From positions 2,356,001 through 2,420,000 of the forward strand of contig NZ_JAENXS010000002.1 in the NCBI RefSeq assembly GCF_016612535.1: DNA of 64,000 nucleotides, given 5' to 3'. Below the pieces are notes generated by a model. The model ran no database searches and was not told the DNA's origin. It saw only the letters and a program-made list of their open reading frames with translations. The stretch is from Bradyrhizobium diazoefficiens. GTDB lineage: Bacteria > Pseudomonadota > Alphaproteobacteria > Rhizobiales > Xanthobacteraceae. Below, one piece after another: positions 895 to 56,405 of this stretch (positions are counted from its first letter, which is position 1; every line of letters begins with the position of its first letter). The position numbers and the translations under genes were made by a program.

Positions 895-1941
895 TTATCC
901 CGCGACGGTCGTCGCCGAGCGAACGAAGCGGACAACGTCCTGTGGCACAAGCTGTACGCGCAAGGCCGCCTCAAGCTCTTCAGCGCCCAGCGTCCGCAGA
1001 TCTCCGTTAAAATCATCGAAGCTGGGCGACAATGTGAACGCCTCGATGCCGGCCGCTTCCGCGCGGTTCGTCAAGTTCATCGCAGCACCCTCTCCGGCAG
1101 GATCGGCGTCGCGGGCGATATACAGTCGGCGCAGCGTCAACGGGAGCAGCAGGGCGGCGAGATGGTTGGCTGAGAGTGCCGCGACCATCGGCATGCTCGG
1201 CAGAACATGGCGAATCGAAAGCATGGTCTCGATGCCCTCGCCCGCCACAAGCACATCGTTAGCAAGACCGAACCGTACGGCGTTACCCAGGAGGTCGCCC
1301 ATGGCACGTCGCGGAGTGTCAATCGACGCCTTGCCGCGTCCGGACGGGTCAAGCCAAGTCCGGTGCACGCCCGTGATCCGGCCGTCGAGGTCGGTAACTC
1401 GGGCAATCATCGCCGGCCAGACTTCAGTCGGCGCTTCGTCGTCCGCCCGGTAGTAGCAGCGCGGATGGAAACGCAACGCACCTTCGTGATGCACGGATGG
1501 AATGCCTCGTCGGCACAAATAGGTTTCGACAACAGTCCGATTGATCGACCGCGATATGCCGAACAGTCGCCGGGCTGCTGCTGGGGATCCGGTCTGGGCC
1601 TTGGCGTGCGCGGACATCAATTCGGGTGGGGAATCGGGTCGAGGCAGGCCTAAGAATCGTCGCGCCTCGTCGGCAACATCGCGGAAATCGAGCAACCCGC
1701 AACTCTCACTGATAATGTCGAGCAGGTCGCCATGCTCGCCGGTCGCAGCGTCCGTCCACTTGCCCGCAGGTCCCTTGGTCGACGCAACCAACCGCACAAA
1801 CATGGAGCGCCCGGGCGTATTTCTGCTATCGCCGACCAGCCAATAGCGGCCTTGGCGACGGCCGTTGGAGAGATAGTGCCGGCACACCGCCTCCGCCTCG
1901 CGAGCGAGGCGGAGCGCCAGTTCGGAAGCATCGCGGGGCAT
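895..1941 (-). CDS. Toprim domain-containing protein (primase-like)
   Basis: 348 residues from the ATG at 1941, giving MPRDASELALRLAREAE. An in-frame start 14 codons upstream would lie inside the preceding gene. The stop of that gene and this ATG overlap (TAATG), which implies translational coupling. The N-terminal half resembles the zinc-ribbon-less primase-type domain (GRRQGRYWLVGD, then TGEHGDLLDII). The C-terminal half carries a TOPRIM fold: VLVAGEGIETMLS gives the catalytic Glu and LYIARDADPAGEGAA gives the DxD. Such proteins sit with strawberry-notch helicases on alphaproteobacterial plasmids and integrative elements and are presumed to act in element replication; that role is inferred. 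Confidence 0.85.
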   Translation of the reverse strand: MPRDASELALRLAREAEAVCRHYLSNGRRQGRYWLVGDSRNTPGRSMFVRLVASTKGPAGKWTDAATGEHGDLLDIISESCGLLDFRDVADEARRFLGLPRPDSPPELMSAHAKAQTGSPAAARRLFGISRSINRTVVETYLCRRGIPSVHHEGALRFHPRCYYRADDEAPTEVWPAMIARVTDLDGRITGVHRTWLDPSGRGKASIDTPRRAMGDLLGNAVRFGLANDVLVAGEGIETMLSIRHVLPSMPMVAALSANHLAALLLPLTLRRLYIARDADPAGEGAAMNLTNRAEAAGIEAFTLSPSFDDFNGDLRTLGAEELEAALRVQLVPQDVVRFVRSATTVAG

Positions 1942-6440: not shown

Positions 6441-8564
6441 TCATTCAGCAGCGATGATGTGCGGCCGCTCCTCTTCGGCATCCGCGGTGGCTTCGTCCTC
6501 GGGGGTCGCGAGGAATTCAGGCAAGGCCTCAACGTCAGCGTTGGCGTCTTGCCCCACGGTATCTATCTCCACGAGACGAAGCGGTTCGGGCAGCCAACCC
6601 GTGCCATCGAGCAGCCGCTCGGCTTCGCGGGCCATGTCGCCCTTCTTGAGGTGGTCGATGAGCTGGACCGATGGCTCGCCCTTCGCCTCACGCACGGCTT
6701 CGAGAATACGAGGCTTGGTGACCCGGCCGAGATAGTTGTCGACGGTCGGTTTCCAGCCCACTGCCGCCATATCGAGTCCGACCGAGCGAGCAAGGAGGTC
6801 GGCCTGATCGAGCCTTCGGCGGACGCCATGGGCGGAGACCCGGCTCTCATTGTAGCGGTTAGCCGGCTCATAGAGCGCATTGACTGCGGATGATGCACAA
6901 TGAGCGAACAGCGCAGCCTGTTCCTTCCCGCCAAGCGCAGTGAGGGCGTCCCAGAGGTCGCCTTCGTCCTTGGGAAGGCGGACCTTCCACCCGTCGTGCC
7001 TGGTGTCGACGGCCTCAGCCGACGCGCTCTCCTTCAAGCCCGGCGCAGATGCGGGAAACGCCGGCGTCCGGATCGCGATCTCCAGGCAACCGCTCGACGA
7101 CGCGAAACGATAGAACGTCGCCAGCACAAAGTTGTGCAGTACCGCCTGGAAGGCAACGGTTGGATTGTTCGCTAATGCGTTGCGTAGCGCCAGCGTGCGA
7201 TGTGCGGTCAGCTCGGTGATGAGCCGATCCGGCAGCGGTTTAACGCTGTCGTCCTCGTCTTCATCGACGGGTTCTGCCGGCGCGCCGCCGACAGTGATGA
7301 CCGCACGTTGGACTGAACCAACGGTTGCTGGTCGTTCACCGCCCTCCTCTTCGTCCTGTGCGCCGATCTCCAGATCATCGACGACGAGTGCCTCGTCCTC
7401 TGACCGAACGTAGCCTCGGTCCACCGACAGCGAGCCCTCGGCATCGATGCTGATGAATACACCGGCGCGGGCGATCTCTGCCGGATCGTAGATCAGGGAT
7501 CGGGCTTCAAATGCGGACCGTGCCGCTTCGATCTCGCCAAGACGCTGATCGACTTCGTCGGGCAGTTCAACGGCGTCCTGATAGTCCGCCTCGATCTTGT
7601 CGTACTCGGCGTTGAGCGCATCAAGCGTCGCCCGCTCCTCCTCCGTCAAATCAGCCGGCTCGCCCTCAAGCTTCCGGAGGCCGCCGGAATGGCCGTAGGG
7701 GAAATCAACGGCGATCGAGATCCACTTCCAGCCCTCGGCCGCGATCGCCTCGGCGTCAGCCTTGAGTTTCTCGGTCACGAGACGATCGAGCAACGGTACG
7801 TCCTGCAGCCAGCCGCCGTCGTCGTGCTCAAACAGATCCCGCATGACCGTGCCGCCGGCCTGCTCGTAGGCGTCCAACCCGATGAACCGCGCGCGGCGAT
7901 CCGATGCACGAACCGTATTCTCGGTCAGCATACGGCGGATCTGGTAGGGCTCATCATAGTTCGAGCGACTCACGTTCTCCCAGATCTGCTCCTGACGCGC
8001 ATGATCACCGGTCACCGCGAAGGCCATCAACTGCTCCAACGTCATGCCGTCGTCGGCATAGACGTCGTGGAGTTTCGGGGAGACCGATGCGAGGCGCAGT
8101 CGCTGCTTGACGATCGCAGGCGTCACAAAGTGACGTGCGGCGATCTCTTCTTCGCTCATCCCGCCATCATGCAAGCTCCGGAACGCGCGGAACTGATCGA
8201 GGGGGTGCAGGCCGATTCGTTCGTCATTCTCGGCAAGAGAATCGTCCTCAGCGATACCGTTATCCCGGACCACGCACGGCACGGGTTGGGTCTTGGCCAA
8301 GCGCTTCTGCTTCACCAACAATTCGAGGGCACGATAACGCCGCCCACCGGCTGGCACCTCGAACATTCCGGTTTCCTGGCCATCCGCATCGAGGACCGCA
8401 CGAACGCTTAGGCTTTGCAGCAACGTGCGTTGCGCAATGCTTTCCGCCAGTTGCTCGATCGAGATGCCTGCCTTCACACGCCGAACATTGGACTGGCTCA
8501 AGACCAGCTTGTTGAAGGGAATATCGCGGGAAGAACTGAGTTTGATTTTCTGAACGCTTGCCAT
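6441..8564 (-). CDS. Large ParB/RepB/Spo0J-type protein
   Basis: 707 residues. I chose the ATG at 8564 (MASVQKIKLSSS) because the typical ParB opening follows at once (IPFNKLVLSQSNVRR). The longer in-frame reading up to 9089 runs through a hairpin-rich non-coding repeat. The N-terminal ParB/sulfiredoxin-like nuclease domain has the GGRRYRAL motif (about residue 77-84). A KorB-like helix-turn-helix follows (EEEIAARHFVTPAIVKQRLR). The long C-terminal half is acidic and poorly characterised. ParB-like proteins of this size regularly precede strawberry-notch genes on alphaproteobacterial elements. A role in partition or in regulating the backbone is likely but not shown by the sequence. Confidence 0.9.
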   Translation of the reverse strand: MASVQKIKLSSSRDIPFNKLVLSQSNVRRVKAGISIEQLAESIAQRTLLQSLSVRAVLDADGQETGMFEVPAGGRRYRALELLVKQKRLAKTQPVPCVVRDNGIAEDDSLAENDERIGLHPLDQFRAFRSLHDGGMSEEEIAARHFVTPAIVKQRLRLASVSPKLHDVYADDGMTLEQLMAFAVTGDHARQEQIWENVSRSNYDEPYQIRRMLTENTVRASDRRARFIGLDAYEQAGGTVMRDLFEHDDGGWLQDVPLLDRLVTEKLKADAEAIAAEGWKWISIAVDFPYGHSGGLRKLEGEPADLTEEERATLDALNAEYDKIEADYQDAVELPDEVDQRLGEIEAARSAFEARSLIYDPAEIARAGVFISIDAEGSLSVDRGYVRSEDEALVVDDLEIGAQDEEEGGERPATVGSVQRAVITVGGAPAEPVDEDEDDSVKPLPDRLITELTAHRTLALRNALANNPTVAFQAVLHNFVLATFYRFASSSGCLEIAIRTPAFPASAPGLKESASAEAVDTRHDGWKVRLPKDEGDLWDALTALGGKEQAALFAHCASSAVNALYEPANRYNESRVSAHGVRRRLDQADLLARSVGLDMAAVGWKPTVDNYLGRVTKPRILEAVREAKGEPSVQLIDHLKKGDMAREAERLLDGTGWLPEPLRLVEIDTVGQDANADVEALPEFLATPEDEATADAEEERPHIIAAE

Positions 8565-8725: not shown

Positions 8726-9003
8726 TTCCGAAGCGAAGCGGAGGCTCGGAAAAAGGCACCCGCAGGAGGGTCAGCATAGCGCCGACGCGCAGCGGCGGGA
8801 CCCGGGACCGAGTGCAGTCGCGAGACCGGTTAAGAAGGCACCCGGGCGCGGGACAGTGATAGCGACGCCGCAGGCGGGCCCCTTCAGCGAGTGCCCCCGG
8901 CGAGAAGCACATAATTCTTGCGCGAAGGACCGTCACCCGAAGGGCCGAGACCGATGGGCTCGGTAAGCGCAACGCGTAGAGCCTGGTCCGCGAGCGAACG
9001 CGC
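8726..9003. ncRNA. Structured repeat, copy 1 (candidate non-coding RNA or 5' leader)
   Basis: About 280 bp of GC-rich DNA alignable with 21065-21358 through shared blocks: GGCACCCG, AGCATAGCG, GACCGGTTAA, CAGTGATAGCGAC, CCCCTTCAGCGAGTG, TCTTGCGCGA, GGCCGAGAC, GGTCCGCG. Between the blocks lie hairpins whose sequence differs from copy 2 but whose pairing is kept: CGCCG/CGGCG at 8780-8797, CCCG/CGGG at 8841-8852, CGCC/GGCG at 8866-8876, CCGAG/CTCGG at 8945-8963, GCG/CGC at 8967-8975, CGCG/CGCG at 8989-9002. On the minus strand it lies about 160 bp upstream of the ParB-like start, so it could be that gene's leader. On the plus strand nothing follows it. The strand is undetermined. The rest of 8565-9101 shows no credible gene. 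Confidence 0.6.
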
Positions 9004-9101
9004 CCGTTCTTTGGCGCCATGTGGTGCGCAAAAACGAATAAGAGCTGCTCAGCCCACGTCCTCTTGCGAAGCCGCTGTACGCACGTCAAACTGAAGCCTG
9101 A

Positions 9102-9851
9102 TCAGACGTTCTCAAACATCCAAAATGCCAGCATGCGGGCCCCATAAGTCAGGACGACGCCGATCAGCATCATTGAGAGGGCCGTCCAGTCACTATTGAA
9201 GAGCGAGGCGAGGAGTGCAACGGGCACCAGGCCGACCCCAAACATGCACATGCCGATGATGATCGATTTCAATCCCCAATAGAAATAGGCCGTCAGGAGA
9301 CCGATCATCCAGAGGCAGGTCCCGAAAATATAGGAGGAAGAGAAGAAACCGATGGCGCTGACAACGCGCGTCTTTCGAAACGCCGACAGTGGAGCCAGAA
9401 TGACAATGCAGACCACGATCGCCCATTGCGCGGCGAGGCTGACGTAGTGCAGCAAGTTCTCCGACGCCCAGGTAGCGCCGTAGAGAAGCATCATAAGCAG
9501 CGTTACGGAACCAATCCCGATCGCTAGCATGAGGAGAAAGGCTCCGATTCCCTGCAGCGTCTCTTTCGCCCAGGCGGTATTCGCGGCACGAGCGCTCTTT
9601 GCATCGTGTTGCCTGGCCGCGGCACGCGTCAGCTCGGACTGGACCTGAGGTACCGGGGGCAAAGGTTGCGCAACCTTCGGCGGCGGGAATAGCTGTTCAA
9701 CTTCAGCCGCTCTCTTCCAGGCATCAAATCCTGCACACCACACAAAGACCTCGCCGGGTCTCGCCATCCCGCTCAAGAGACTGATCAACCGGTCCTGCGG
9801 TAGCGGGGCGACGGTTTGCCGATGCTGATCGACGTAATACCAGGCGGACAT
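9102..9851 (-). CDS. GYF_2-domain membrane protein
   Basis: 249 residues. Residues 1-55 match the GYF_2 (DUF4339) pattern: MSAWYYVDQ, then a 'control' segment and EVFVWCAGFDAWKRAAEV. A proline- and charge-rich linker follows. From about residue 95 there are about five hydrophobic segments (for example GIGAFLLMLAIGIGSVTLLM and WAIVVCIVILAPL), so it is an inner-membrane protein with a cytoplasmic peptide-binding-like head. It is the last gene of a minus-strand series with the KTSC and trypsin-like genes. Specific function is unknown. Confidence 0.8.
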   Translation of the reverse strand: MSAWYYVDQHRQTVAPLPQDRLISLLSGMARPGEVFVWCAGFDAWKRAAEVEQLFPPPKVAQPLPPVPQVQSELTRAAARQHDAKSARAANTAWAKETLQGIGAFLLMLAIGIGSVTLLMMLLYGATWASENLLHYVSLAAQWAIVVCIVILAPLSAFRKTRVVSAIGFFSSSYIFGTCLWMIGLLTAYFYWGLKSIIIGMCMFGVGLVPVALLASLFNSDWTALSMMLIGVVLTYGARMLAFWMFENV

Positions 9852-9917
9852 GAGCCCTCCTTCGCTTAAACGAGTACATCCGGATCGGCATAGGCGCTCT
9901 GCCGCGCCGCTGTGAAT

Positions 9918-10274
9918 TCAGTAGGGCGGGACTCGGTGGGTGCGGCAATCGAACGGGCCGTCCGAGCCCGTTCCCTTGATGCGCTCGTTGTAGAATGTGC
10001 CCATCGATGGCGCTTCGAGAAACGCACTCAGTATGGCCTTTGGAAATTCGCAATAATGATAGTAGGTCGTATTGAGGCGAATGATCATATATTGCTTGGT
10101 GTCATCATAGCAGACACGCGTGATAAAGCTGCTGCGGCTGATATCGTTACAGGAAAATGTCTTGAGATCGACGGGACCTCGGTATTTGACGTTGACTGTC
10201 TCGCCATGCGACGGCAGCAGGTACGCGCCGAAGAGCGCAAGCGACGCAACCCACAGCGTTCGTTTCAGGCGCAA
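9918..10274 (-). CDS. Exported KTSC-domain protein
   Basis: 118 residues. It has an N-terminal signal peptide (MRLKRTLWVASLALFGAYL) ending near SHGE. The body contains a short beta-rich KTSC-type domain: SRSSFITRVCYDD, YMIIRLNTTYYHYCEFP, then AFLEAPSMGTFYNERIKG, which is the usual 'Y-x-Y-x-x-V-P ... S-x-G-x-x-F/Y-N' ending of the family. KTSC domains are small and functionally undefined. Cysteines at CNDIS, CYDD, YCEF and FDCR could form disulfides in the periplasm. It starts 10 bp after the trypsin-like gene ends, so co-transcription with it is likely. Confidence 0.75.
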   Translation of the reverse strand: MRLKRTLWVASLALFGAYLLPSHGETVNVKYRGPVDLKTFSCNDISRSSFITRVCYDDTKQYMIIRLNTTYYHYCEFPKAILSAFLEAPSMGTFYNERIKGTGSDGPFDCRTHRVPPY

Positions 10275-10283
10275 GGCGGATCC

Positions 10284-11459
10284 TCAATAACGGGTGCCGG
10301 GTATGTATTTGTCGAGGCGCGAGGGCGTCAGCTTGCCGTCGGCGTGATAGCCGACGAGATCGATCTTTCCGTCGAAATCAACGTCATGAAAAGAGATATC
10401 CCACTTCGTGTCGCGATTGCGGTCTGCGACCGAGATATCCGTCTTGCCGTCGAAGTTCGTATCGAGATGCGCCGAGATGGGTTTGGTGAGGTCGTCAGGC
10501 GTGACGAAGGAATAGTCGGGCTTGCCATCGCAGTTCGTATCGTACTGGATGAGCCCAGCGATGTTCTGCCGGTCCCTTCCCTCATATAGTTTCACCGACT
10601 TGCAGGTCGCCGGCGCTTTGGCCGGTATCGGCTGACCGGCCTTGGCTAGAAACGCCTGGACATCGGCGATGGAGATCGCGAAGTTCAACGCTTCGCCCTT
10701 GGCCTTGAAGGCGTTCACGCCGACGAGCTTGCCATCGTCCGATAGGAGGGGGCCGCCCGAATTGCCGGGATTGATCGGTGTCTGGGTCTGGATCACGCTT
10801 GCCTTGTGCGCACCTTCTTCGTCGCGCCATTCGTAGTCCTTACGGTATTGGCTGATAAATCCTTTGGTGTAGGTCCAGGCCTCTCCGGTCGGATGCCCGA
10901 TCGCGTGCACGTCGGCGCCGACCTGAATGTCGGCTTCGGAGCCCAGGGCGATCGGCTTGACGTCGCGCGGGGTCGCCGCCAGGCGAAGGAGGGCCAGGTC
11001 GTGGCCCGGATCGATTTTCACGACCTGCGCGATCTCGAAGTCCGCCTCGGATGGCTTGCTGCCCTCGGTTGGCGGCTTGAACAGGAGACCGACCTTCTGG
11101 AAGCCCTTGACCACATGCCAGTTGGTCAGGACCGTGTCCCCGGGCCCGATATAGGAACCTGAACCAATGCTGGTGTCGGTGACGACGATGACGACGGAGG
11201 GCGATAGCAACCGGTAGATCTCGGAATCGTGCCGGCCGCGGCTGGCGAAAGGCGCGTCCGCGAGCTTGGCGCCGGCATACTTGCTGGCAAGCGAGATGCC
11301 GAGACCGCCCATATCGTAAAGTTCGGGGGTGCTCTCAAGCGAGAGTATGCTAGCGTTCTCGGGCGACGCCGGGAGGGCCTTGCCGACCAAGTCTGCCTGG
11401 GCCACGGCTGTATCCGTGAGGGCGACGGCAATGAAGGCTGACAGAACGGCACGCTTCAT
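10284..11459 (-). CDS. Secreted trypsin-like (HtrA/S1C-type) serine protease
   Basis: 391 residues from the ATG at 11459 (MKRAVLSAFIAVALTDTAVA, a signal peptide), preceded by GGGGAG. The catalytic triad is visible: His115 in TNWHVVKGF, Asp154 in PGHDLALLRLA and Ser234 in NPGNSGGPLLS. Instead of a PDZ domain, the C-terminus has four short Asp/Asn repeats (TNCDGKPDY, TNFDGKTDI, RNRDTKWDI, VDFDGKIDL). They resemble calcium-binding EF-hand or FG-GAP loops. It is divergent from, and overlaps by 26 bp, the CHAT gene start, and runs with the KTSC and GYF_2 genes. Probably periplasmic; substrates unknown. Calcium-dependent anchoring is my inference from the loops. Confidence 0.9.
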   Translation of the reverse strand: MKRAVLSAFIAVALTDTAVAQADLVGKALPASPENASILSLESTPELYDMGGLGISLASKYAGAKLADAPFASRGRHDSEIYRLLSPSVVIVVTDTSIGSGSYIGPGDTVLTNWHVVKGFQKVGLLFKPPTEGSKPSEADFEIAQVVKIDPGHDLALLRLAATPRDVKPIALGSEADIQVGADVHAIGHPTGEAWTYTKGFISQYRKDYEWRDEEGAHKASVIQTQTPINPGNSGGPLLSDDGKLVGVNAFKAKGEALNFAISIADVQAFLAKAGQPIPAKAPATCKSVKLYEGRDRQNIAGLIQYDTNCDGKPDYSFVTPDDLTKPISAHLDTNFDGKTDISVADRNRDTKWDISFHDVDFDGKIDLVGYHADGKLTPSRLDKYIPGTRY

Positions 11460-14400
11460 ACGATCGGGCTCCCCATCCCTGATGCAGTTGCTGGCAGCGA
11501 TGGTGCTCTGCACAACCTTGCAGTTCATTCCCGTTTCGCGCGCATTTTCACAGCCCGCGCCGGATTTGGAAAGCCGAAAACAGGCCGCTTACCAGAAATT
11601 TCATCACGGCCAGGTCCGGGAGGCGGCGCGGGAGATCGCCGAGCTTGCCAAACAAACCGACGATAAATCTGCCAAGGCTTATCTGCTCCGCGATCTGACC
11701 GAGATCTGTACGACGGCGTATGAGCTTGATTGCGCGGTTCAAGCCGAGATTGCGGCCTATGAGATCGTCAAGAGTGACGAAAAGCTCAAGGCGCTCTTCT
11801 CAGAACTTTATGCTTATTTGGTTCGCGCTCAGGTCTGGGCGAATAATCCGGAGGTGCAGACGGGCGTCTTCCGGGACAACAAGGTCCCGTTCAATCCCGC
11901 CGCGACACCTTATCCGGCCATGATGGCCAACCTGGCGGCGGTCACATATTTCCTGCGGTCGAACAATCAACGGTTAGCTGAAAAAGCTTACTCCACCGCT
12001 GTCATCAGCCTGCTATTGATCGACCCCAAAGACAAGTACAGCATCGGCAAGGGGCTGGTCGAGCTGCTCGAATCTCTGATCGTGCAACAGGATATCGTAA
12101 GCGCACAGGCGCTTGCGCGACTTATAGATCCCTACATTTCCGCCAACTTCAATCATGAAGGGCCGGTATTCGCAGGTTACATACATCTGACGAACCAACT
12201 CTTCGCCATGACGAGCCGGTCGAGGAAGGCGGCGAGCTATCTCGACGAGGCGATCCGGCTGAACGATCGCCTCGACATCAACGACGGCATCAAGCTCTAC
12301 CGCACTTCGACCAGCAATAGCCTCGCTTCACTGTCACTGCTCTTTGAAGGCACGACCGACGAGGCCGCTGCCGTTCACGAGCGCCATCCGCTACAGTCTC
12401 AGAGAGAAGCGATCCTTGCACGGGGGCATTTTGAGACGCTGCAGGAGTTTTACTTTGCGCTCTCCGATGTGCTCATCGAAAGCTCCAGGGAGTCGCCCCG
12501 AACGGCGGCCTGGAAGCCGCTGTTCGCCTCGATCCCTCCAACGTGGCAACTGAAGGGGCTGATTGCCGAGAATATCGAGTCCTATCGCCATTTTGTGCTC
12601 GGGCTTATTACGTTCAGGACATCCAAGCCAGAAGGCGCTCAACTGGTCCAAACAGCGGCAAGGGAACGCATTGAAGTCTTTGAGACGTTTCTGAAGCAGC
12701 GTTTTGAGGGGTTTCAGCTTCCTTCTTTGATGGATCTGCTCGTCATCGAGACTGCGCTTACATCCCTTGCGGACTATCCCCCGGCGGATGCCGCCGATCT
12801 GGCACTGAAGGGCAGCGAGATGCTGTCCCGCACACTGCGGCATCAGACCAGCGATTTTGCCGTGCTCATCGGCGCGCAGAAGACCGAACGCGCTCGCGCC
12901 ACCGTGCGCTCCCATTATCTCCTGCTGCAACAAAAGCGGCAGTGGGAGCTCGATCAGATCAAGCTCCTCATGGCGGGCGGCAAGAAAGAGGCCGGCTATC
13001 TCATTACAACCTATGCGGGCCTCACGGAGACGATCGGGCGATTGGGGGAGACCCTCGCAAAAGATGCGGATTACGCCAAAGCAATCGGCTATCCGACGAC
13101 CGCGCAGATGCAGTCTGTCCTCGAACCCAATGAAGTCTTCCTTACTTTCTTCCCAACGCTGAAAGGCATGGGCCGCCTCTGCATTTCGAAAACGACGGCG
13201 CTCTTTTCGGTTTCTGATGTCAATCCGCAGCAGGCGATCCTGGACGCCAAGCTGTTGCGGCTGGCGCTGACGCAGGAACGCGCGCCCGATGATACACTGG
13301 ATAGCCAGTATCCGGTGGCATCGGCGGTCCGGCTTGGCGATCTGCTCTTCAAAGGCCTTGAGGCGTGCCTGGTGCCGGGTTCGCTGGTTAATGCTGCCCC
13401 TCCGGAGGAGCTCGCCGGTATTCCCCTCGCGGCTCTGCTCGAGGAAGCGCCGCCCCGTCGGGGTGACGGCTATGACCTGCTGGCGGCGCGCTGGCTCGGA
13501 AAGAAGTTCAGATTCGCAACCTCGATTTCTGCGCGCCACCTGCTTGGCACGCGCGCATCCGTGTCACACCAGCACGCTTCGCTTCCTTATCTCGGGCTCG
13601 GCAATCCGGCTCTTTCAACCGCTACGCAGCAGGCAAGCCTGACGCGTGGCGGCAATGCGAATGCCTCGCTGCGCGGCGCCCTGAGCGAACTTGGATCGCT
13701 TCCCGAAACAGCCGATGAAATCACCAGCGTTGCGCAGCTTATGAGGGCATCGAAACGCGATGTCCTTTTGGGCGCGGACGCTTCGGAAGAAGATTTTCGC
13801 ACGAAGGATCTCGGCAAATACGACATTATTCATTTTGCGACGCATGGGCTGCTGCGCAACGACGTGCCCGGCGTCAATGAGGCGTCCCTCGTTTTGACGC
13901 CCAACGATCTCTCCGACAGTTTCAACGATGGATTATTGACGGCGTCCGAGATCACGCGGCTGCCACTGGATGCGCGCCTCGTAGTTTTGTCGGCCTGCAA
14001 CACGGCACGAATCGACACCTCGGCCGCGAATATTGGTATCACCGATCTCTCCGCTGCCTTCTCGGTCGCGGGCTCTCCGACATTGCTGGCGTCCCTTTGG
14101 ACCGTGGAAACCAACGCCGCGCATGATCTCGTTCTGGAATTTTTCAGATCCTGGAAGGACCAACGTCACAAGAGCGCATCAGCAGCTTTATCGGAAGGAA
14201 TCGAACGCTACCTCGCCAAGGCCGACAGGGCCCACCATCACCCGCGCTTCTGGGCTCCCTTCATCGTCTTCGGCTATGGCGCCAGCCTTCCCGACGACGC
14301 TCCGCTTTCAACGGCCACGGCCTTTGCGTATGAGCATATTGATCGCGATGATGTCGGCGAAGTTCTTGATGCTAAAGCGGATGCCGGCCGCCTGTTACTT

Positions 14401-15456
14401 TCGGTAATGGGGGACTGGGATGGCAAGAGCATGGCGAGCATCATCAGGGATGCCGCCACCGACGGCGCGCGCCTTGCGGCGCCGTCGCATGAGATCGGCG
14501 CCGGCCAGCTTCTCATCGATCAATCGCAAATCTATGCGTTTGGCTATAAGGCGTCGGTACATCCTTACCCGATCGTGAGGCGGTTTGCGCCGAGCGGCTC
14601 CGAGGTGTGGGAGACGACATGGCCGGATCTTGTGGACGACATGCCGTTCGGGTCGCTGGCCGTCGGGAGCGACATCGTCATGCTGTCGGGATCGACTTAT
14701 TCATCGCATACGGAGGAACGCGTGGCGCGCCTCATCCGGTTTGACCACGATGGGCATGAGATCACGCGCAAGGATATCAAGGTCGGATTATCCGAGTTTA
14801 TCATCGGCAGATGGGCACTGCTCTCAAGGGTCGGCGCGGATCTCGCGCTCATCATCAACTCCCGGCAGTTTGGCAATTTCGGCTCAAACGAGGCTCTGTT
14901 CGGCCTGCCCACACTGTGCCAGGGCCCGCTTCAGGCGGCCGTCTATCTGCTGGACGGCGCGAGCTTTGAGGTGAAGAAGACACTTACGATCCCGGACTAT
15001 CAGGTCTTCGCCGCGGAGGGGGGCGAGAGCCGACTGATGATCGGCGGCCAGACGCGGGGATATTGCGATAGCGGCGGCAAAGGACTTCTTATCGCGGCGA
15101 GCCCGGAGCTGACGCCATCGCCGCTCTGGAAGGATGACGACCAGTTTCCTTCCAACGTCCAGTCTGTGGCGAGCGCGAACGGCGAGACGCTTTTCGTGGT
15201 CAAGCGGCAGCGGCCGATTGGCGTGAGGCGCCTCGGCGTAGCGGCGCCGGAGTCGAATTCAAAAAGATGGGGTGACGGAGGCGACGAACTGCTCGAATTT
15301 TCGGTGCTCAGGATCGGCCAGGACGGCGCAGCGGTGCCCACCTACAACTCCTCGTTCGGACTGAGTGCATTCGCGCAGGGAATTGTTTTCGACCGCGGCG
15401 CGCCGGTCATTTACGGCAGCCTTGGCGGCCGCGCGGCGATTTCGGAACGGCGATAG
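11434..15456 (+). CDS. Large exported CHAT-domain (caspase-like) protease
   Basis: 1340 residues from the ATG at 11434 (MKADRTARF). This start has GAGGG upstream and gives a basic n-region before the hydrophobic stretch LMQLLAAMVLCTTLQFIPV, cleaved near AFSQ. An alternative start is the ATG at 11482. Domains: a helical, TPR-like N-terminal half (from about EAAREIAELAKQ), then a CHAT peptidase with catalytic His804 in HFATHG and Cys855 in LSACNTA, followed by GITDLSAAFSVAG and SLWTVE typical of CHAT. The last ~350 residues look beta-rich and propeller-like. CHAT proteases usually act in the cytoplasm in conflict or signalling systems; an exported one beside a trypsin-like protease and a subtilase is unusual. 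Confidence 0.88.
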   Translation, partial: KADRTARFIRSGSPSLMQLLAAMVLCTTLQFIPVSRAFSQPAPDLESRKQAAYQKFHHGQVREAAREIAELAKQTDDKSAKAYLLRDLTEICTTAYELDCAVQAEIAAYEIVKSDEKLKALFSELYAYLVRAQVWANNPEVQTGVFRDNKVPFNPAATPYPAMMANLAAVTYFLRSNNQRLAEKAYSTAVISLLLIDPKDKYSIGKGLVELLESLIVQQDIVSAQALARLIDPYISANFNHEGPVFAGYIHLTNQLFAMTSRSRKAASYLDEAIRLNDRLDINDGIKLYRTSTSNSLASLSLLFEGTTDEAAAVHERHPLQSQREAILARGHFETLQEFYFALSDVLIESSRESPRTAAWKPLFASIPPTWQLKGLIAENIESYRHFVLGLITFRTSKPEGAQLVQTAARERIEVFETFLKQRFEGFQLPSLMDLLVIETALTSLADYPPADAADLALKGSEMLSRTLRHQTSDFAVLIGAQKTERARATVRSHYLLLQQKRQWELDQIKLLMAGGKKEAGYLITTYAGLTETIGRLGETLAKDADYAKAIGYPTTAQMQSVLEPNEVFLTFFPTLKGMGRLCISKTTALFSVSDVNPQQAILDAKLLRLALTQERAPDDTLDSQYPVASAVRLGDLLFKGLEACLVPGSLVNAAPPEELAGIPLAALLEEAPPRRGDGYDLLAARWLGKKFRFATSISARHLLGTRASVSHQHASLPYLGLGNPALSTATQQASLTRGGNANASLRGALSELGSLPETADEITSVAQLMRASKRDVLLGADASEEDFRTKDLGKYDIIHFATHGLLRNDVPGVNEASLVLTPNDLSDSFNDGLLTASEITRLPLDARLVVLSACNTARIDTSAANIGITDLSAAFSVAGSPTLLASLWTVETNAAHDLVLEFFRSWKDQRHKSASAALSEGIERYLAKADRAHHHPRFWAPFIVFGYGASLPDDAPLSTATAFAYEHIDRDDVGEVLDAKADAGRLLLSVMGDWDGKSMASIIRDAATDGARLAAPSHEIGAGQLLIDQSQIYAFGYKASVHPYPIVRRFAPSGSEVWETTWPDLVDDMPFGSLAVGSDIVMLSGSTYSSHTEERVARLIRFDHDGHEITRKDIKVGLSEFIIGRWALLSRVGADLALIINSRQFGNFGSNEALFGLPTLCQGPLQAAVYLLDGASFEVKKTLTIPDYQVFAAEGGESRLMIGGQTRGYCDSGGKGLLIAASPELTPSPLWKDDDQFPSNVQSVASANGETLFVVKRQRPIGVRRLGVAAPESNSKRWGDGGDELLEFSVLRIGQDGAAVPTYNSSFGLSAFAQGIVFDRGAPVIYGSLGGRAAISERR

Positions 15457-15719
15457 GTGTACGGATTTACAGTTCGGCAACTCTCGGGCGTTCCAACCGA
15501 CAGCTTGCAGAATAAGTATGGTCGATCGTGGGTCTAACCGTTGAACCCGAAAGACACACTCACGCTTCACTCTGACTGGCGCGTCACAGCGTAGCGCGGG
15601 ATTCATATACTTCGTTTCAAAGTTGTGATTGACAACTCGTTCGCCTGGTCCGAAACTGAGGCAATAAGAATAATCATATTCACAACTGTTTTTGCGGCGC
15701 TGTTTTTTGGGGGCGGGAT

Positions 15720-16760
15720 ATGTTTGGCGCGGCTTCACGCGGCGCGCTTCTCTGTGCTGCGTTGTGTTTGGGCTCCTGTACGAGCCTCAATGTTATCCAT
15801 GATCCGCATCCTTTCCTCGACCGCCAGCAAGTGCCCAACTTGCTGAAATCGATGAGATGCGAGCTCATTACGTATATCGAAGCAAACCGGCAGCGGCGCA
15901 ATCTCTTCTATCTGCTCCGCAATTTCGACCGGACCTATGCGTTCGCAACCTTTCCGCACTATGAGCTATCGGAAAAACTGTTCGGTCTGATCGTGCTGGA
16001 TCTCAAGGTTCAGGACACGGTTGGCGTGGGCGCCACCATTGATCCTCTGAACACGGTGGACGCTGCAACGACCCGGACATGGCATTTTGGACCGTCGGCT
16101 GGAAATCAGAACACGTATGAGCTGAACTGGAGCTTCCTGGTGCCTCAGGATGCTCGTCTCACGCCGCCGCTGAACAAGATCGATCCTTTCCAGTGCTACA
16201 CATCGTTGCCGCCCGTCGTCCAGTTTCCGGGCCTGGACGATCGGCTGAGGAAAGCTGGGTATGTCGCCCGCGATTTCGATGGTCTCGCGCGCGGCAACTA
16301 TCCGGAGCTGGCGAACTTTGTTCGCGTCACCGTCAACGGGACAGTGCCCTTAGCTGCATGGCTGCAGGATAACAGCACCGAGACCTGGGCCAATTTTGCA
16401 GCTCTCGACAGGAAGCTTGAGGCAAACGAGCAGTTCATACCCGCTCAGATGATCTACACATTTGCCGTCCAGGCGAGCGTCGGGCTCGAGGTCAAATTTA
16501 CACTGGTTTCGCCGGTCTGGAGCGCGCTCGCACCAAACGCAAACGGCTCAACCCAGCACACAAGTCAGATTCAGATCTGGCTTAACGGCGAGCCCGCGAA
16601 GCTTGCGGCAGCGGCTCAGTCAGGCACGGCGGAGATCACCACAACACCTGCCGAGCCGCATGGAGCCGGGCCGCTACCAGGAGCGCCGACGGTCCAGAAG
16701 AAGCGGGGAACGATCACGAACCAGTTGCCGCTCTTTCCGGTGCGACCAACAATTCGCTGA
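15720..16760 (+). CDS. Predicted lipoprotein of unknown function
   Basis: 346 residues. The N-terminus MFGAASRGALLCAALCLGSC gives a signal peptide with lipobox LGSC (lipidated Cys20). The mature part has no family I recognise. It starts with a helical region (LLKSMRCELITYIEANRQRR), then a beta-rich region with FGLIVLDLKVQDTVGVG and LNWSFLVPQD, and ends in a Pro/Ala-rich tail. The beta-rich part (a domain testing 'increased solubility' in amphipathic strands) could be membrane-associated, but that is a guess. It sits 264 bp after the CHAT gene and 21 bp before the subtilase gene, so it probably shares a transcript with the latter. Confidence 0.75.
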   Translation: MFGAASRGALLCAALCLGSCTSLNVIHDPHPFLDRQQVPNLLKSMRCELITYIEANRQRRNLFYLLRNFDRTYAFATFPHYELSEKLFGLIVLDLKVQDTVGVGATIDPLNTVDAATTRTWHFGPSAGNQNTYELNWSFLVPQDARLTPPLNKIDPFQCYTSLPPVVQFPGLDDRLRKAGYVARDFDGLARGNYPELANFVRVTVNGTVPLAAWLQDNSTETWANFAALDRKLEANEQFIPAQMIYTFAVQASVGLEVKFTLVSPVWSALAPNANGSTQHTSQIQIWLNGEPAKLAAAAQSGTAEITTTPAEPHGAGPLPGAPTVQKKRGTITNQLPLFPVRPTIR

Positions 16761-16781
16761 CGAGTTCAAGGGGGCTGAACC

Positions 16782-18209
16782 ATGTGGCGGGTGATGTGGC
16801 AATACGGCTCCTCGCGTATGGGCCCAATGACTGCGGCTGTCGCGCCTGATCTTCAGGGCGTTCTCGATGCCAAGGCTCTTCTGTGGAAGGATCTAAACGC
16901 CTACGGAGATCCCGAGCCGGTGTTCTCCGAGCATCCGGCCTTGCTAAGAACGAGCATGCTTGCGCTGCCTCATCTGCAGGCGGACCCGGCCATGGACCTC
17001 GCAGGTTACGCGCACGTCTTCGTGCCGACGCAGCAGCAGGCGCTGACGCTGGTCAACCGGTTGCGGGCCGAGCGCGACATCGTCTACGCCGACATGCAGG
17101 GTGAGTGGCAATATCCGGTAAAGTTCGGCCAATCGCGACGGGTTCCGACGGCCGAGATCCTGCTGTCGGTCCCGGTGCCTGGCACACCGGATTTGTCGAG
17201 CGAGCAGGGATATCTAGGACCCGCGCCGGCCGGGATCGACGCACTCTATGCGTGGACCATTCCGGGCGGGCGCGGGACCGGCGTCAGGATTGTTGACATC
17301 GAGAACGGCTGGAATTTCGGTCACGAGGATCTGAAAGGCAACGACAACGGCGTGATCTACGGCCCCCATTCGGATAACGATCACGGCACGGCGGTGCTCG
17401 GAATCTTCCATGGGGATGCCAACATCTTCGGCGTAACCGGCATTGCGAGCCAGTCATCGCTCTCCGCGGCGGCGGTCATGTATGATTTCAAGCTGCGCAA
17501 ATGGAATGCCGCAGCGGCGATCAAGTTCGCGGCGGATCGTATGGCGCAGGGCGATGTGATCCTCCTTGAGATGCACGCGCCGGGTCCCAACACTCATGGG
17601 AACAATTCCAAGTCGCAGCAGGGGTTCATTTCGATCGAATACTGGCTGCCCGAATTTGCCGCGATCAAATATGCGACCGGCAAAGGAATTCACGTGGTGG
17701 AAGCTGGCGGCAATGGCGGTGAAAACCTGGATGCGCCGATCTACAACAATGCATTCTCGCGGACAGTTCGTGACTCCGGCGCAATTCTGGTCGGTGGCGG
17801 CAATTCGGCCCATGACGCTCATCCGCGATCACGCATCTGGTGGTCGAACTACGGCAGCCGCGTGGACGTCCAGGGATGGGGTCTTGACATCGTGACTACC
17901 GGAGGACGGTCAGAACCTTCGTACTATGACCGCATCAGCAGCGCCGATGAGTCAAAATGCTATACGCAATCCTTCGGTGGCACTTCGGGAGCATCACCCA
18001 TCATAACGGGAGCCGTCGCTTCGATCAGCGGGGCCCTGAAGGCCGCCGGACGGGCAACGTTGCCTCCCTCAGAGATGAGGCAATTGATGGTGGAGACCGG
18101 GACCGCACAAAGCGACGCCCCCGATTTCCCATCCGCCACGCAACATATTGGACCTCTTCCTGATCTAAGAGCGGCCTTTTCACGTCTGACGCTTGGGGGT
18201 GTAGCATGA
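16782..18209 (+). CDS. Subtilisin-like (S8) serine protease
   Basis: 475 residues, with a strong AGGGGG ribosome site 9 bases before the ATG at 16782. Catalytic residues: Asp172 (VDIENGWNF), His201 (NDHGTAVLG), oxyanion Asn311 (AGGNGGEN) and Ser402 (GGTSGASPI). About 150 residues precede the peptidase domain, like a prodomain. No signal peptide is visible (MWRVMWQYGSSRMGPM), in contrast to its neighbours, so its location is uncertain. It overlaps the next gene by ATGA. Together with the CHAT and trypsin-like genes it makes three different protease folds in one cluster. This suggests a proteolytic cascade, though sequence alone cannot show that. Confidence 0.9.
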   Translation: MWRVMWQYGSSRMGPMTAAVAPDLQGVLDAKALLWKDLNAYGDPEPVFSEHPALLRTSMLALPHLQADPAMDLAGYAHVFVPTQQQALTLVNRLRAERDIVYADMQGEWQYPVKFGQSRRVPTAEILLSVPVPGTPDLSSEQGYLGPAPAGIDALYAWTIPGGRGTGVRIVDIENGWNFGHEDLKGNDNGVIYGPHSDNDHGTAVLGIFHGDANIFGVTGIASQSSLSAAAVMYDFKLRKWNAAAAIKFAADRMAQGDVILLEMHAPGPNTHGNNSKSQQGFISIEYWLPEFAAIKYATGKGIHVVEAGGNGGENLDAPIYNNAFSRTVRDSGAILVGGGNSAHDAHPRSRIWWSNYGSRVDVQGWGLDIVTTGGRSEPSYYDRISSADESKCYTQSFGGTSGASPIITGAVASISGALKAAGRATLPPSEMRQLMVETGTAQSDAPDFPSATQHIGPLPDLRAAFSRLTLGGVA

Positions 18210-18904
18210 GATCACTTTTCACTGTGGCTCGACTAGAGGCAGCAACACTCGTGCTGCTAACTGTTTTTGCGATTCCGCTGGCACAAGCACAATCCGTCAG
18301 GCTTCCGCCAGCGTTGCAGGCCTGCTTCAGCCGGGACCATGGCAAACCGATTCAACTCGTCCCCGAAGGTGATATCCAGACCTGCTATCCACCGGCTTTT
18401 CAATTCGTGATGTCACGGGGTTGGCTTAGCCCCGCAAGCTTTTGGGAGTATGCCGGCAATCAGGGCTCGATGCAGTGGCTTGAGTATGTCTCGTCCTGGC
18501 GGCTGCCGGGCAACGCCATTGAGTGCAAGGCGATTTCCGATGGGTTTGGTTTTACCTTTAACGGCGAGGTCGAGCGCGTCCGGCGCTGGTTGTTTACCCC
18601 CGCGGGCTTGGCGCGGCTATCCGATCCGCAGGACCGAGCGAAGCATCTGACAGACGCGTATCAGCGAACGACGCCCCCTTGCGCAATCGGAGCGCCTAAG
18701 ACGACACAAACGGACGTCGAGAAGATGCTGCAGCGGATTGCAGCGGGTCCAGCGGTTTACCAGTGCACGCCTTGGGGACGTGGCGGATGTGACAACGGGA
18801 AACCGCGAACGGGCACATTCGTCAACGTATCCAACCCGCTTGCCAATGAACTCGGCGGCGCACGCGCGCAGTCCTACGAACTCGTTTTGAAGTTGTTTGA
18901 ATGA
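18206..18904 (+). CDS. Small secreted protein, unrecognised family
   Basis: 232 residues. Signal peptide (MRSLFTVARLEAATLVLLTV ending near LAQAQS). The mature part is rich in aromatic residues (FVMSRGWLSPASFWEYAGN, MQWLEYVSSWRLPG) and has six cysteines (ACFSR, TCYPP, ECKAI, PPCAI, YQCTP, GGCDN), so disulfides in the periplasm are likely. It starts in a 4-base overlap with the subtilase, so the two are coupled. It may be a substrate, inhibitor or cofactor of that protease; nothing in the sequence decides which. Confidence 0.75.
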   Translation: MRSLFTVARLEAATLVLLTVFAIPLAQAQSVRLPPALQACFSRDHGKPIQLVPEGDIQTCYPPAFQFVMSRGWLSPASFWEYAGNQGSMQWLEYVSSWRLPGNAIECKAISDGFGFTFNGEVERVRRWLFTPAGLARLSDPQDRAKHLTDAYQRTTPPCAIGAPKTTQTDVEKMLQRIAAGPAVYQCTPWGRGGCDNGKPRTGTFVNVSNPLANELGGARAQSYELVLKLFE

Positions 18905-19320
18905 GCAGGTTTCAGTGACTCAGGGACTATCGTTGCTCCGGCGAGCTCCACCAAGTGGACGGGTTATTCCAGAGGAATTCGCGATGATCGGTGGCGGTCT
19001 CGGCGAACTCCATTTCGTAAACGGGCGCGTAGCGTCACCAAGCGAGTGACAAGGCTTCGGGCCAAGCCCGCGTCGTTCTCAGCCGATGCGGTGCACCGAA
19101 AGTCGGATGGAGGTTCTGATCACGATCTAAGCCACTGGAGCGCACAAATTTGGCAGCCTCCTCTTGATAAAGAGGATGATCTGCGGCAATCTCTGGTCGT
19201 TTCCTATAATCGACACTACTAAAAGCCTTTTTCAGTCTGGCTCCAGGCCCGGGCGAGCGGATGTTCGCTACGCCTGTGGTCGGTTGCCTGGACGCGAACG
19301 CATACAAGGATTTTTTTCAG
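18905..19320. other. Intergenic, 416 bp, with a short possible gene remnant
   Basis: A 44-codon plus-strand frame at 18915-19049 (GTG start, reading RVIPEEFAMIGGGLGELHFV near its end) looks protein-like and may be the tail of a deleted gene. A 90-codon minus-strand frame at 19035-19307 has no ribosome site I trust. The last 20 bases hold the AAGGA site of the haloperoxidase gene. No terminator or repeat was seen. Confidence 0.4.
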
Positions 19321-21036
19321 ATGACCAAGACACCGATGGCTAATGAACCGAATCCCGCGAAGCGCGATGTCAAGGGAATTGGAAATTTTCACAAGACGCT
19401 CAAGCACGATCCGAGGTCGGGGCTCGTCGATCAGCACGCATTCGCTCAGTTCGACAGGATCACCCAGGACGGGGACAATTTCGCGAACGTCCCGCAGGCG
19501 TCCGGCGCCTCGCCACTGATCAATCCGCAGGCCGGCTGGTCGCACGAGGAGCTCGGCCCAGATCCGCGGCAGATGACGATGCCGCCGCCGCCGGACGTAC
19601 GCTCACATGCATCGGCGGTGGAGATGACCGAGTTGTTCTGGATGGCGCTCTTGCGCGATGTCAAACTCCAGGATTTCGCAACTGACGCAGGCATTACCGA
19701 AGCGGTGACCGAACTTCACGGCCTCTTTGACCAGCACAAGAAAGAATTCCGGCGTATGGACCTGCCGCTTGCGCCAGGCGCAAAGCAGTCCGGCATGCCG
19801 TTCATTTCGACGGAGGCGGTCGATATTTCGGTCAAGACCGTGTTTCGATCCGGTTTGCCCGACGAGAACAAAGGGCCGCTGGTTAGCCAGTTCTTCCTCA
19901 ACGATATTTCGTACGGCACCCAGGTCATTCTGCAAAAGCAATTCCCATACAAGGCTGGGCAGGACTTCCTGTGCGATTGGGACTCCTGGCTGAAGGCGCA
20001 GGATACGGGGCTCGATAACGACGGTCATAACTATCCTGGCGACAATACGAATACGCCGCCCGATCAGCCCAGGACGAACTACTATGAGAACGACTACCAT
20101 ACGTTTGCCGGACTGCGCCCGATCAGCACGATGCGGGATCTGGCGCGGTTCGTAAACAAGGACGCGCTTCATCAGGCCTATTTCAACGCTGCGCTTCAAC
20201 TGCTCAACTGGGGCGCGAAGCCGTCCAGGCAGAATCCATACAGCGGCGGCAAGATCAAGAACCAGATTGCCTTCGGCACGCTCGGCGGGCCGCATCTGCT
20301 GGCACTGGTGTCGGAAGTGGCGAGCCGGGCGCTCAAGGTCATTTGGCGGCAAAAGTGGCGCCAGCATCTCAGGCACCGGCCGGAAGCCTACGGAGGCCTC
20401 ATGCAGGCGATTTACCACAAGGACCTCGCCGAGGCCCTTCCAGCCTTTGTGTTCTCGACGAAGGCCGCGCAGCAAATTCTCGCATATAACAAGAAGGGCA
20501 ACTTCTTGCTGCCGATAGCATTCTCCGCCGGTTCGCCTGCCCATCCGGCGTACGGAGCGGGGCATGCAACGGTCGCCGGCGCATGCGTCACCATCCTGAA
20601 GGCCTGGTTCGATCATCATGGCGCACTGCTGAAGCCCGTCATCGAAGGCGGCAGGGACGCAATCGCCGGAACACCGCTATCCATTCAGGCCTTCGGTGCA
20701 GACGATGGCGACATGGTGACGGTCGAGGGCGAGTTGAACAAGCTCGCCAGCAATGTCGCGATGGGGCGCAGCATGGGCGGCGTTCATTGGCGAACCGACA
20801 ATACCCGCAGCCTGCGGCTCGGCGAGAAGATCGCGACGATCATTTTGCGTCGGCAGAGCGGCGACTACCATGAGCATCCCGGCTGGGAGTACTGGAATTT
20901 CGACGGCAATCGGGTGTCAATCAGCAATATGGGACATGTCGAAGTCGAGAACGACGCCAACCTCACCGGCTTCTACAACTCGCCAGCCTTCGCACCATTT
21001 CACAGGGACCATGTGTTCGACGATCTTGTCGCCTGA
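19321..21036 (+). CDS. Vanadium-dependent haloperoxidase / PAP2-fold enzyme
   Basis: 571 residues from the ATG at 19321 (MTKTPMANEPNP), 10 bases after AAGGA. The three vanadate/phosphate-binding motifs of the PAP2-chloroperoxidase fold are present in order: KWRQHLRHRPEAYGG, SPAHPAYGAGHATVAGA (acid-base His415) and GRSMGGVHWRTDN (axial His489). Spacing and length fit bacterial vanadium haloperoxidases of about 550-600 residues rather than small PAP2 phosphatases. Family members oxidise halides with peroxide or act as phosphatases; which applies here cannot be read from the sequence. No signal peptide is obvious. It closes the gene cluster bracketed by the two structured repeats. Confidence 0.88.
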   Translation: MTKTPMANEPNPAKRDVKGIGNFHKTLKHDPRSGLVDQHAFAQFDRITQDGDNFANVPQASGASPLINPQAGWSHEELGPDPRQMTMPPPPDVRSHASAVEMTELFWMALLRDVKLQDFATDAGITEAVTELHGLFDQHKKEFRRMDLPLAPGAKQSGMPFISTEAVDISVKTVFRSGLPDENKGPLVSQFFLNDISYGTQVILQKQFPYKAGQDFLCDWDSWLKAQDTGLDNDGHNYPGDNTNTPPDQPRTNYYENDYHTFAGLRPISTMRDLARFVNKDALHQAYFNAALQLLNWGAKPSRQNPYSGGKIKNQIAFGTLGGPHLLALVSEVASRALKVIWRQKWRQHLRHRPEAYGGLMQAIYHKDLAEALPAFVFSTKAAQQILAYNKKGNFLLPIAFSAGSPAHPAYGAGHATVAGACVTILKAWFDHHGALLKPVIEGGRDAIAGTPLSIQAFGADDGDMVTVEGELNKLASNVAMGRSMGGVHWRTDNTRSLRLGEKIATIILRRQSGDYHEHPGWEYWNFDGNRVSISNMGHVEVENDANLTGFYNSPAFAPFHRDHVFDDLVA

Positions 21037-21064
21037 TCCGGGACAGGAATCGATGAGCGTGATC

Positions 21065-21358
21065 GAGCGTGCGCGAAGCGCATCGCTCCCCTGAAATGGC
21101 ACCCGGGGAGCGTGAGCATAGCGACCCCGAAGGGGGCACGCGAGACGAGTGCAACGCCGTGACCGGTTAACAGCGGCACCCGTCTGACGGGGCAGTGATA
21201 GCGACCTGCCACTCGCGAGCGAGTGACAGGGGCCCCTTCAGCGAGTGGCCCCGGCGCGGCGTTCATTATGTCTTGCGCGATGGGACCGTTACCGGAAGGC
21301 CGAGACGAAGACTCGGTGAGCGCAAGCTCATAGGGCCCGGTCCGCGTGGCGGACGCGG
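21065..21358. ncRNA. Structured repeat, copy 2 (candidate non-coding RNA)
   Basis: Homologous to 8726-9003 in the same orientation. Hairpins include GAGCG...CGCTC at 21065-21088, CCCC-GAA-GGGG at 21125-21135, CCCGT/ACGGG at 21179-21191, a 26-base stem-loop at 21205-21230 (only 11 bases in copy 1), CCGAG/CTCGG at 21300-21316, GAGC/GCTC at 21318-21329 and GTCCGC/GCGGAC at 21340-21354. It also has an internal duplication: two units of GGCACCCG, hairpin, ATAGCGA, hairpin. It lies 29 bp after the haloperoxidase stop and 140 bp before the next gene. The strand is undetermined. The 21037-21498 gap holds nothing else I can support. Confidence 0.6.
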
Positions 21359-21498
21359 CCCCAATCCAATTCCGTTGTCAGGGGTTGCTTGTGCATAACC
21401 TGGCGACCGTAGCAGCGACCCTGCTGACTCGTGCAGATCGACCGCCCTACCATTTGAGGTAGATTTCCGGACCGACCTCTTTCATTTGGAGATTTCCT

Positions 21499-24609: not shown

Positions 24610-24643
24610 AGGTTCTTCTCTGCTCGTCTCGAATGGTATCCTA

Positions 24644-25411: not shown

Positions 25412-25415
25412 GGCC

Positions 25416-56397: not shown

Positions 56398-56405
56398 GTT
56401 GGGCC

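Follow-up and report, generated by a model that had tools for sequence, protein, structure and literature searches.

Among described systems, the closest to the element reported here are the Frpo/ssi promoters of F-type plasmids, the sso1 signal of the integrative and conjugative element (ICE) ICEBs1 and, within the same genus, the BjsR small RNAs (sRNAs) and Br-REP elements of USDA 110. It has been previously reported, in the part of the study by Samuel et al. consulted here, that Frpo/ssi promoters are found upstream of anti-defence genes (PMC11541004). How rhizobial islands, symbiosis islands included, survive while single-stranded in a new host found no answer in the literature that we searched. 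The window, meaning the whole 64,000-nucleotide stretch of Bradyrhizobium diazoefficiens DNA that was analysed (contig NZ_JAENXS010000002.1, positions 2,356,001 to 2,420,000; G000:C2:2356001-2420000, where G000 is its own genome), carries two copies of an intergenic element built of tandem bulged hairpins and a branched 3' domain. We found that this element is a structured nucleic acid under selection; it probably serves during the entry of the island, in single-stranded form, into a new cell.

When the whole own genome was queried with copy 2, BLASTN returned copy 2 itself and copy 1, the two being 73% identical (E 1.8e-27, query 30-296 of 301). The pair was also recovered by nhmmer (E 2.5e-16, in a database far smaller than that of BLASTN). 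The initial annotation had placed two divergent copies here in the same orientation and had named stems that both could form from different bases; the copies are indeed where it put them, and the sequences contain the named stems in both, several of them altered on both sides. Against 100 dinucleotide shuffles, copy 2 folded with a z of -4.97 (minus strand, -4.96), and copy 1 folded alone was unremarkable (z -0.05; minus strand, 0.62). Since copy 1 does no better than its shuffles, the case was built on comparison rather than on folding energy.

The element consists of two similar units in tandem followed by the branched 3' domain (D3). Each unit is a long hairpin (GGCAC ... GTGCC, with further stems) that has a variable tip and one conserved bulge of 10-11 nt on its 5' side, reading AGCATAGCGA in unit 1 and AGTGATAGCGA in unit 2. 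Unit 2 is clamped by ACCGG/CCGG, and the four clamp pairs are unvarying in 27 sequences. In pairing tests, which control for sequence relatedness in part only, the alignment of these 27 sequences had 96.0% of 792 cells paired and 21 double-change cells versus 1-11 in slid structures (shuffles, 0/500); 63 less redundant copies had 95.0% of cells paired and 83 double-change cells versus 11-31 with the partner slid (shuffles, 0/500), the pairs with any double change separating less clearly (13 versus 5-12 slid; shuffles, 0/500); and D3 was 96.7% paired, with 33 double-change cells versus 0-12 slid. Compensatory changes exceed the controls, and the selected RNA or DNA structure that had been proposed from the two copies is thus upheld in the wider family.

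At the level of the genus, 179 of 265 genomes carry the element at E <= 0.001 with copy 2 as the query. A covariance model built from 27 copies (R1) extended this to relatives, a kind of search that the initial annotation had put forward: 105 of 391 genomes and 14 of 47 genera of the family matched (E 0.01), as did 10 of 297 genomes and 5 of 122 genera of the order (E 0.01), and in a draw of 289 genomes from the class the window's own genome alone matched (E 0.001). Numbers of copies per genome are lower bounds, because the genus search scored two candidates per genome and the family search at most seven. Thirteen of 72,556 plasmid records matched, every one from Bradyrhizobium. A phage origin was rejected after zero matches among 50,697 phage records at E 1e-5. 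A search of Rfam (4227 families) at gathering level gave nothing over the element in the window, whose one match was a tRNA, nor anything in three related loci (L112, L052 and L065); the best match below threshold over the element was weak (E 3.6). The earlier impression that it belongs to no known Rfam family therefore stands, and a full-text search of the literature brought up no description that we recognised as this element.

Three variations on the basic layout were seen. In five genomes (G043, G042, G031, G245 and G145) the element is followed, about 375-390 bp downstream, by a second, divergent one on the same strand. At two places (L052/L065, which are the same place, and L053) D3 is broken by a sequence starting GTGCG; in L065 the interruption is followed by a reverse-transcriptase open reading frame (ORF; RVT_1, E 6.8e-24) and is probably a group II intron, although a search of L052 and L065 with Rfam brought up no intron at gathering level. 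In the own genome, a third, degenerate copy of the two-hairpin part was found at G000:C5:34340-34506 (R1, E 8.6e-14), with no D3 after it at E 1.

A minus-strand protein, raised initially as the rival to a folded structure, was rejected. No gene called by codon usage crossed the core midpoint in any of 74 distinct copies, and hairpin unit 2 varies in length without regard to a reading frame, all three residues modulo 3 being represented (18, 13 and 16 of the 47 copies measured). Some open frame was present in 53 of 67 copies, and six-frame openness is little informative in GC-rich DNA.

The element has a one-sided association with ardC and parB. Among the 74 distinct copies, many at loci that hold a flank of 1.5 kb only, the 5' neighbour was on the opposite strand in 53, on the same strand in 14 and not called in 7, and the 3' neighbour was unbiased (29 opposite, 26 same, 19 none). 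In 46 of the 74, the 1.6 kb to the 5' side contained, on the opposite strand, an ardC gene (36 copies) and/or a parB gene (38), and a match to either lay elsewhere around the copy in just one. Where such a gene was the called neighbour, it started 223-457 bp from the core midpoint in 36 of 41 cases. Consistent with this, 66 of 102 minus-strand ORFs on the 5' side fell into one single-linkage cluster, the largest 3' cluster holding 11 of 99. Furthermore, R1, a model blind to proteins, had eight matches in the order outside the family, the top three being located upstream of parB (L097), ardC (L099) and, in L100, a 35-residue match to the ArdC start; the out-of-family parB is 47% identical to that of L112, and the out-of-family ardC 42%. 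On plasmid p192_1, as annotated by NCBI, the element is directly upstream of a zincin-like (ArdC) gene, and a DUF3363 gene is 13 kb off on the 5' side.

Some second copies lie upstream of other accessory genes, namely those for an N6 DNA methylase and a LysR regulator (L122), HipA (L129) and TerB (L116). The second copy of USDA 110 adjoins an ardC remnant (42 residues aligned, 60%), which suggests, from the sequence, accretion of islands. The ~80 bp that immediately precede ardC and parB are themselves alike in the window (8565-8640) and in the spacer of 38 loci, most of them with ardC or parB. By eye this spacer holds a GACGGG...CCCGTC hairpin and a hairpin containing the ribosome-binding site, and it is a candidate second regulatory RNA.

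The orientation of the element is also tied to that of the relaxase gene. Among the matches listed, and counting only contigs with coordinates for both, 22 pairs lie within 60 kb, and in 21 of them the DUF3363 relaxase gene is found 12-35 kb off to the 5' side, on the opposite strand; named plasmids gave two further pairs, both with this polarity. Of 16 pairs of neighbouring elements no more than 130 kb apart, 14 have both members on one strand. A model of D3 (R2) gave four matches in the own island, all on the plus strand, two of them D3-like domains besides those of copies 1 and 2; R2 includes two own-island stretches already found by nhmmer, and its matches there are not independent. One D3 match is just upstream of the own relaxase gene. 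Of 21 relaxase regions, 7 have such a D3-like match close to where the relaxase gene begins, and in six of these the match and the relaxase are on opposite strands. Three D3 matches on contig 1 are all on the minus strand; they span G000:C1:3164844-3300740 (E 2.1e-9 to 8.5e-4) and may mark a further island. In the consulted part of one study, relaxase genes are usually in the lagging region (PMC11541004), so relaxase polarity predicts that the element has its plus strand on the transferred strand (T-strand) of a leading region.

To separate the two strands and the two kinds of nucleic acid, we compared hairpin loops. A strict count took loci of at least 14 kb and perfect hairpins with a stem of at least 5, in and around elements; loops are inherited, so copies in these counts are not independent events. 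C(GNA)G accounted for 24 of 54 triloops on the element strand, 1 of 54 on its complement and 53 of 1536 in the background; for GNRA/GNYA/GNAB among tetraloops, the counts were 11 of 55, 0 of 56 and 82 of 1663, respectively. With a looser extraction by hairpin, C(GNA)G capped unit 1 in 46 of 59 tips and unit 2 in 38 of 67, as well as 18 of 34 first 5' hairpins. Among 54 copies in which the inner hairpin of D3 was read, 27 had GNAB loops, 10 GNA, 4 GNNA and 13 others, which places 41 of 54 copies and 13 of 26 distinct hairpins in the GNA/GNNA/GNAB class. GNAB is also a DNA loop motif, and the RNA version of the GCGAAGC hairpin is much weaker than its DNA counterpart. GNA or GNNA loops give extraordinarily stable DNA mini-hairpins, the GCGAAGC fragment melting at 78 C, according to the consulted part of the source (PMC4686876). 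The loop evidence leans towards folded DNA over folded RNA.

The strand, the loops, the place in the leading region, the link to ardC, an anti-restriction gene, and the repetition along one strand led us to propose that RNA is initiated on the incoming strand. The strand leaving the donor would enter the recipient as single-stranded DNA (ssDNA). There the plus strand of the element would take up its fold, a pair of bulged hairpins followed by the branched 3' domain, with many of the hairpins closed by DNA mini-hairpin loops of very high stability. RNA synthesis would then be started at the element by proteins of the host, RNA polymerase or primase being the probable ones. The product could be a primer for second-strand synthesis (as at ssi/sso), an early anti-restriction transcript (as at Frpo), or both, because the T-strand is the template of ardC/parB and of the genes behind them, which start nearby on the 5' side. 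We regard it as an evenly balanced proposition that the element is such an ssDNA element of the T-strand of ICEs and plasmids with a DUF3363 (RlxS-like) relaxase, its RNA start serving as primer, early message or both; here we infer the identity of the T-strand, the action as ssDNA and the RNA-synthesis step. More tentatively, it may represent a new class of ssDNA start site lacking a recognisable promoter, characterized by tandem hairpins whose conserved bulge of 10-11 nt is of the AGYRATAGCGA type and by DNA mini-hairpin caps, that serves early ArdC/ParB expression and second-strand synthesis in the recipient on RlxS-type islands and plasmids, symbiosis islands included, of Bradyrhizobium and relatives.

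Several observations weigh against initiation on an incoming DNA strand. C(GNA)G is scarce in other hairpins of the element (second 5' hairpins, 6/37; D3 inner, 8/47; D3 end, 7/43), and in a second extraction the D3 end hairpin had DNA-class loops in 9 of 52; by eye, the extraction of this end hairpin looked unreliable. G.T versus A.C exceptions stood at 53 to 53 for a strand-neutral set of pairs that included poorly aligned tips, and the 27 to 5 of D3 owes 22 to a single column; an earlier wobble count of 57 to 21, made on a plus-strand RNAalifold structure, is biased to the plus strand and was not used. When 26 of 39 selected copies were folded, the plus strand was lower in 16 of 26 with DNA energies, a weak preference, and in 9 of 26 with RNA energies. 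Neither the wobble counts nor the energies thus decide between the strands or between DNA and RNA. One relaxase pair (G179 353392) and 2 of the 16 element pairs break the polarity rules, and on the circular plasmid pBb323S2b, which has a Ti-type TraA and no DUF3363, the nearer relaxase is on the 3' side. The origin of transfer (oriT) was not located, a check with MOBP nic motifs having given nothing convincing. The five weaker out-of-family matches do not fit, L102 having ardC on the 3' side. Second copies, the window's copy 2 among them, often have no minus-strand gene downstream and follow a plus-strand gene; the notion that every copy lies upstream of a minus-strand gene was accordingly dropped. 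Finally, no conserved sigma70-like promoter pair was found in the element or spacer across 46 upstream regions, in a search without alphaproteobacterial variants or a fold-based scan of stems, and a primase primer or an unusual promoter is therefore as likely as a Frpo-like one.

Two alternatives would make the active molecule an RNA. The minus strand could be a long, cis-regulatory 5' untranslated region of the ardC/parB mRNA, which we consider unlikely. The element does lie upstream of these genes in the direction that this needs, another conserved hairpin occupies the last ~80 bp before the start codon, the RNA energies quoted above put the plus strand lower in a minority of copies, and, of the 115 C(GNA)G hairpins that lie no more than 120 bp from the core midpoint, 94 have a C-G next pair and read as cUNCGg on the minus strand, which speaks for a leader and against folded DNA. 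We know of no stable minus-strand RNA equivalent, however, for C(GNA)G with a G-C next pair (20/115) or for GNNA/GNAB (31 of 54 D3 inner hairpins), and a gene is missing from that position beside D3 copies and many second copies. The count of minus-strand UNCG tetraloops with a stem of at least 5 also came to zero, a weak point since CC(GNA)GG was booked as a triloop. A stand-alone non-coding RNA from the plus strand, divergent from ardC/parB, seems distinctly unlikely. It would agree with the structure, with the GNRA among the plus-strand loops and with the 74 cores that no called gene spans, but triloops outnumber GNRA tetraloops, and the Rfam searches of the window and of L112, L052 and L065 had no match at gathering level. 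In addition, none of the 10 Northern-validated sRNAs of USDA 110 in Table 1 of the source, the part consulted, starts at the USDA 110 copies (PMC5082802), which R1 places on the minus strand at 1,763,452-606 and 1,768,866-1,769,022.

Other explanations keep the element as DNA and give it different work. It is quite improbable that it is part of the relaxosome, a secondary oriT or a binding site for a ParB- or ArdC-like protein: a D3-like domain near the relaxase gene start, which in the own island sits in the gap upstream of that gene, at a place where an oriT might be expected, fits such a role in conjugation or maintenance, but it occurs in a third of the relaxase regions only, one of these seven regions (L156, with a relaxase frame of 263 aa) has it on the unexpected strand, and the relaxase gene is 12-35 kb away from full elements. 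Integrons and IS200/605 make use of folded ssDNA, and cargo that varies and is in part defence-like can have a copy on either side, as at 9-21 kb of the window; other second copies have such neighbours too. That the element acts in recombination or as a hotspot (attC-like, transposon-like or integrase-related), gathering cargo between copies, is nonetheless very improbable, for the window's copies, at 73% identity only, are no recent duplicate, and neither the ardC/parB link nor the relaxase polarity would be expected of it.

The features of the window are collected in Table 1. Behind the parB-like gene, and all on the minus strand, come genes for a Strawberry-notch helicase, toprim, DUF736, a RepA-like initiator, TraF, a DUF3363/VirD2-type relaxase, TraG and trb; the helicase, initiator, relaxase and TraG rest on Pfam, and the remaining names on reading of the sequence and on annotated p192_1. 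Several of these genes belong to the backbone of RlxS-type ICEs of Mesorhizobium, as far as the consulted part of the source describes them (PMC8627217). The integrase and tRNA-Pro (55141-56783) are the probable right boundary of the island.

Table 1. Coordinates of the element copies, their parts and neighbouring features, as positions in the 64,000-nucleotide window (extents of conserved sequence are approximate).
Feature	Position	Strand	Basis
Element copy 1, complete	8726..9007	+	BLASTN, nhmmer, covariance model; aligned with relatives
Copy 1 hairpin unit 1 (GGCAC...GTGC), 5'-side bulge AGCATAGCGC at 8773-8782	8755..8815	+	Sequence, alignment, pairing test
Copy 1 outer ACCGG/CCGG clamp around hairpin unit 2	8825..8900	+	Four pairs invariant, n = 27 sequences
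Copy 1 hairpin unit 2, bulge AGTGATAGCGA at 8855-8865	8837..8895	+	Sequence, alignment, pairing test
Copy 1 branched 3' domain (D3)	8912..9007	+	R2 match E 7.0e-15 (copy part of model); covariation
Element copy 2, complete; orphan with respect to ardC/parB, 5' neighbour a + gene ending at 21036	21065..21362	+	BLASTN, gene calls, covariance model
Copy 2 5' hairpin GAGCG...CGCTC, tip GCGAAGC	21065..21088	+	Sequence; GNA hairpin at 21070
Copy 2 hairpin unit 1, bulge AGCATAGCGA at 21115-21124	21098..21152	+	Sequence, alignment, pairing test
Copy 2 outer ACCGG/CCGG clamp around unit 2	21162..21254	+	Sequence, alignment, pairing test
Copy 2 hairpin unit 2, bulge AGTGATAGCGA at 21194-21204, long terminal stem 21205-21230	21175..21249	+	Sequence, alignment, pairing test
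Copy 2 branched 3' domain (D3)	21266..21362	+	R2 match E 1.8e-14 (copy part of model); covariation
Lone, weaker D3-like domain, own island	39149..39257	+	R2 E 2.9e-5 (stretch in model); earlier independent nhmmer E 0.0018
parB-like gene, start upstream of and divergent from copy 1	6441..8564	-	Gene call; 85% identical to parB beside the L112 element; Pfam ParB_N below cut-off
Strawberry-notch-type helicase gene, downstream of parB	1941..6206	-	Pfam AAA_34, Helicase_C_4; MTase-like N-terminal part by eye only
Tyrosine integrase gene beside tRNA-Pro (56707-56783)	55141..56397	+	tRNA search, gene call, Pfam

The cargo between the window's copies encodes trypsin-like, CHAT and subtilase proteins. 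Elsewhere in the own island, a second ArdC is encoded at 32654-33565 (ArdcN, E 2.3e-43), with no R1 match beside it. Two proteins at 23698-26489, one of them metallo-beta-lactamase-like by Pfam, match the PADLOC candidate defence PDC-M48B (E 8.1e-148 and 2.5e-100), and a protein at 41189-42370 matches the PADLOC candidate defence PDC-S26 (E 2e-122).

If the element acts on the incoming strand as proposed, it would offer a handle on the single-stranded step of island transfer in nitrogen-fixing bacteria, mark the leading region and the transferred strand in genomes, and point to the putative anti-defence genes that adjoin it. Strand-specific loop motifs combined with covariation could then separate folded-DNA from folded-RNA signals, an approach applicable to other orphan structured elements.

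The element is a structured family with no Rfam counterpart, and we keep it apart from Frpo and sso rather than counting it as a member of either. By description, it resembles the Frpo/ssi elements of F-type plasmids in being intergenic and probably folded as ssDNA, in occurring in several divergent copies, in its presumed T-strand orientation and in its position upstream of anti-defence and establishment genes (PMC11541004, in the part consulted). It differs from them in having no recognised -35/-10 pair, in its length of about 300 nt, in its tandem bulged hairpins, in its GC-richness and in its occurrence in Alphaproteobacteria. The sso1 of ICEBs1, which is downstream from oriT, is likewise, by its description in the consulted part of the source, an orientation-specific ssDNA signal on an ICE (PMC4595007), the element showing a preferred orientation only; unlike the element, sso1 is Gram-positive and of the rolling-circle type. 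The DNA mini-hairpins with GNA/GNNA loops, which cap several plus-strand hairpins of the element, are a loop motif and define no functional family (PMC4686876, part consulted). Finally, the BjsR sRNAs and the two Br-REP elements of USDA 110 are imperfect intergenic repeats of the same genus, as is the element, but in the consulted part of the source they have other coordinates and other consensus sequences (PMC5082802).

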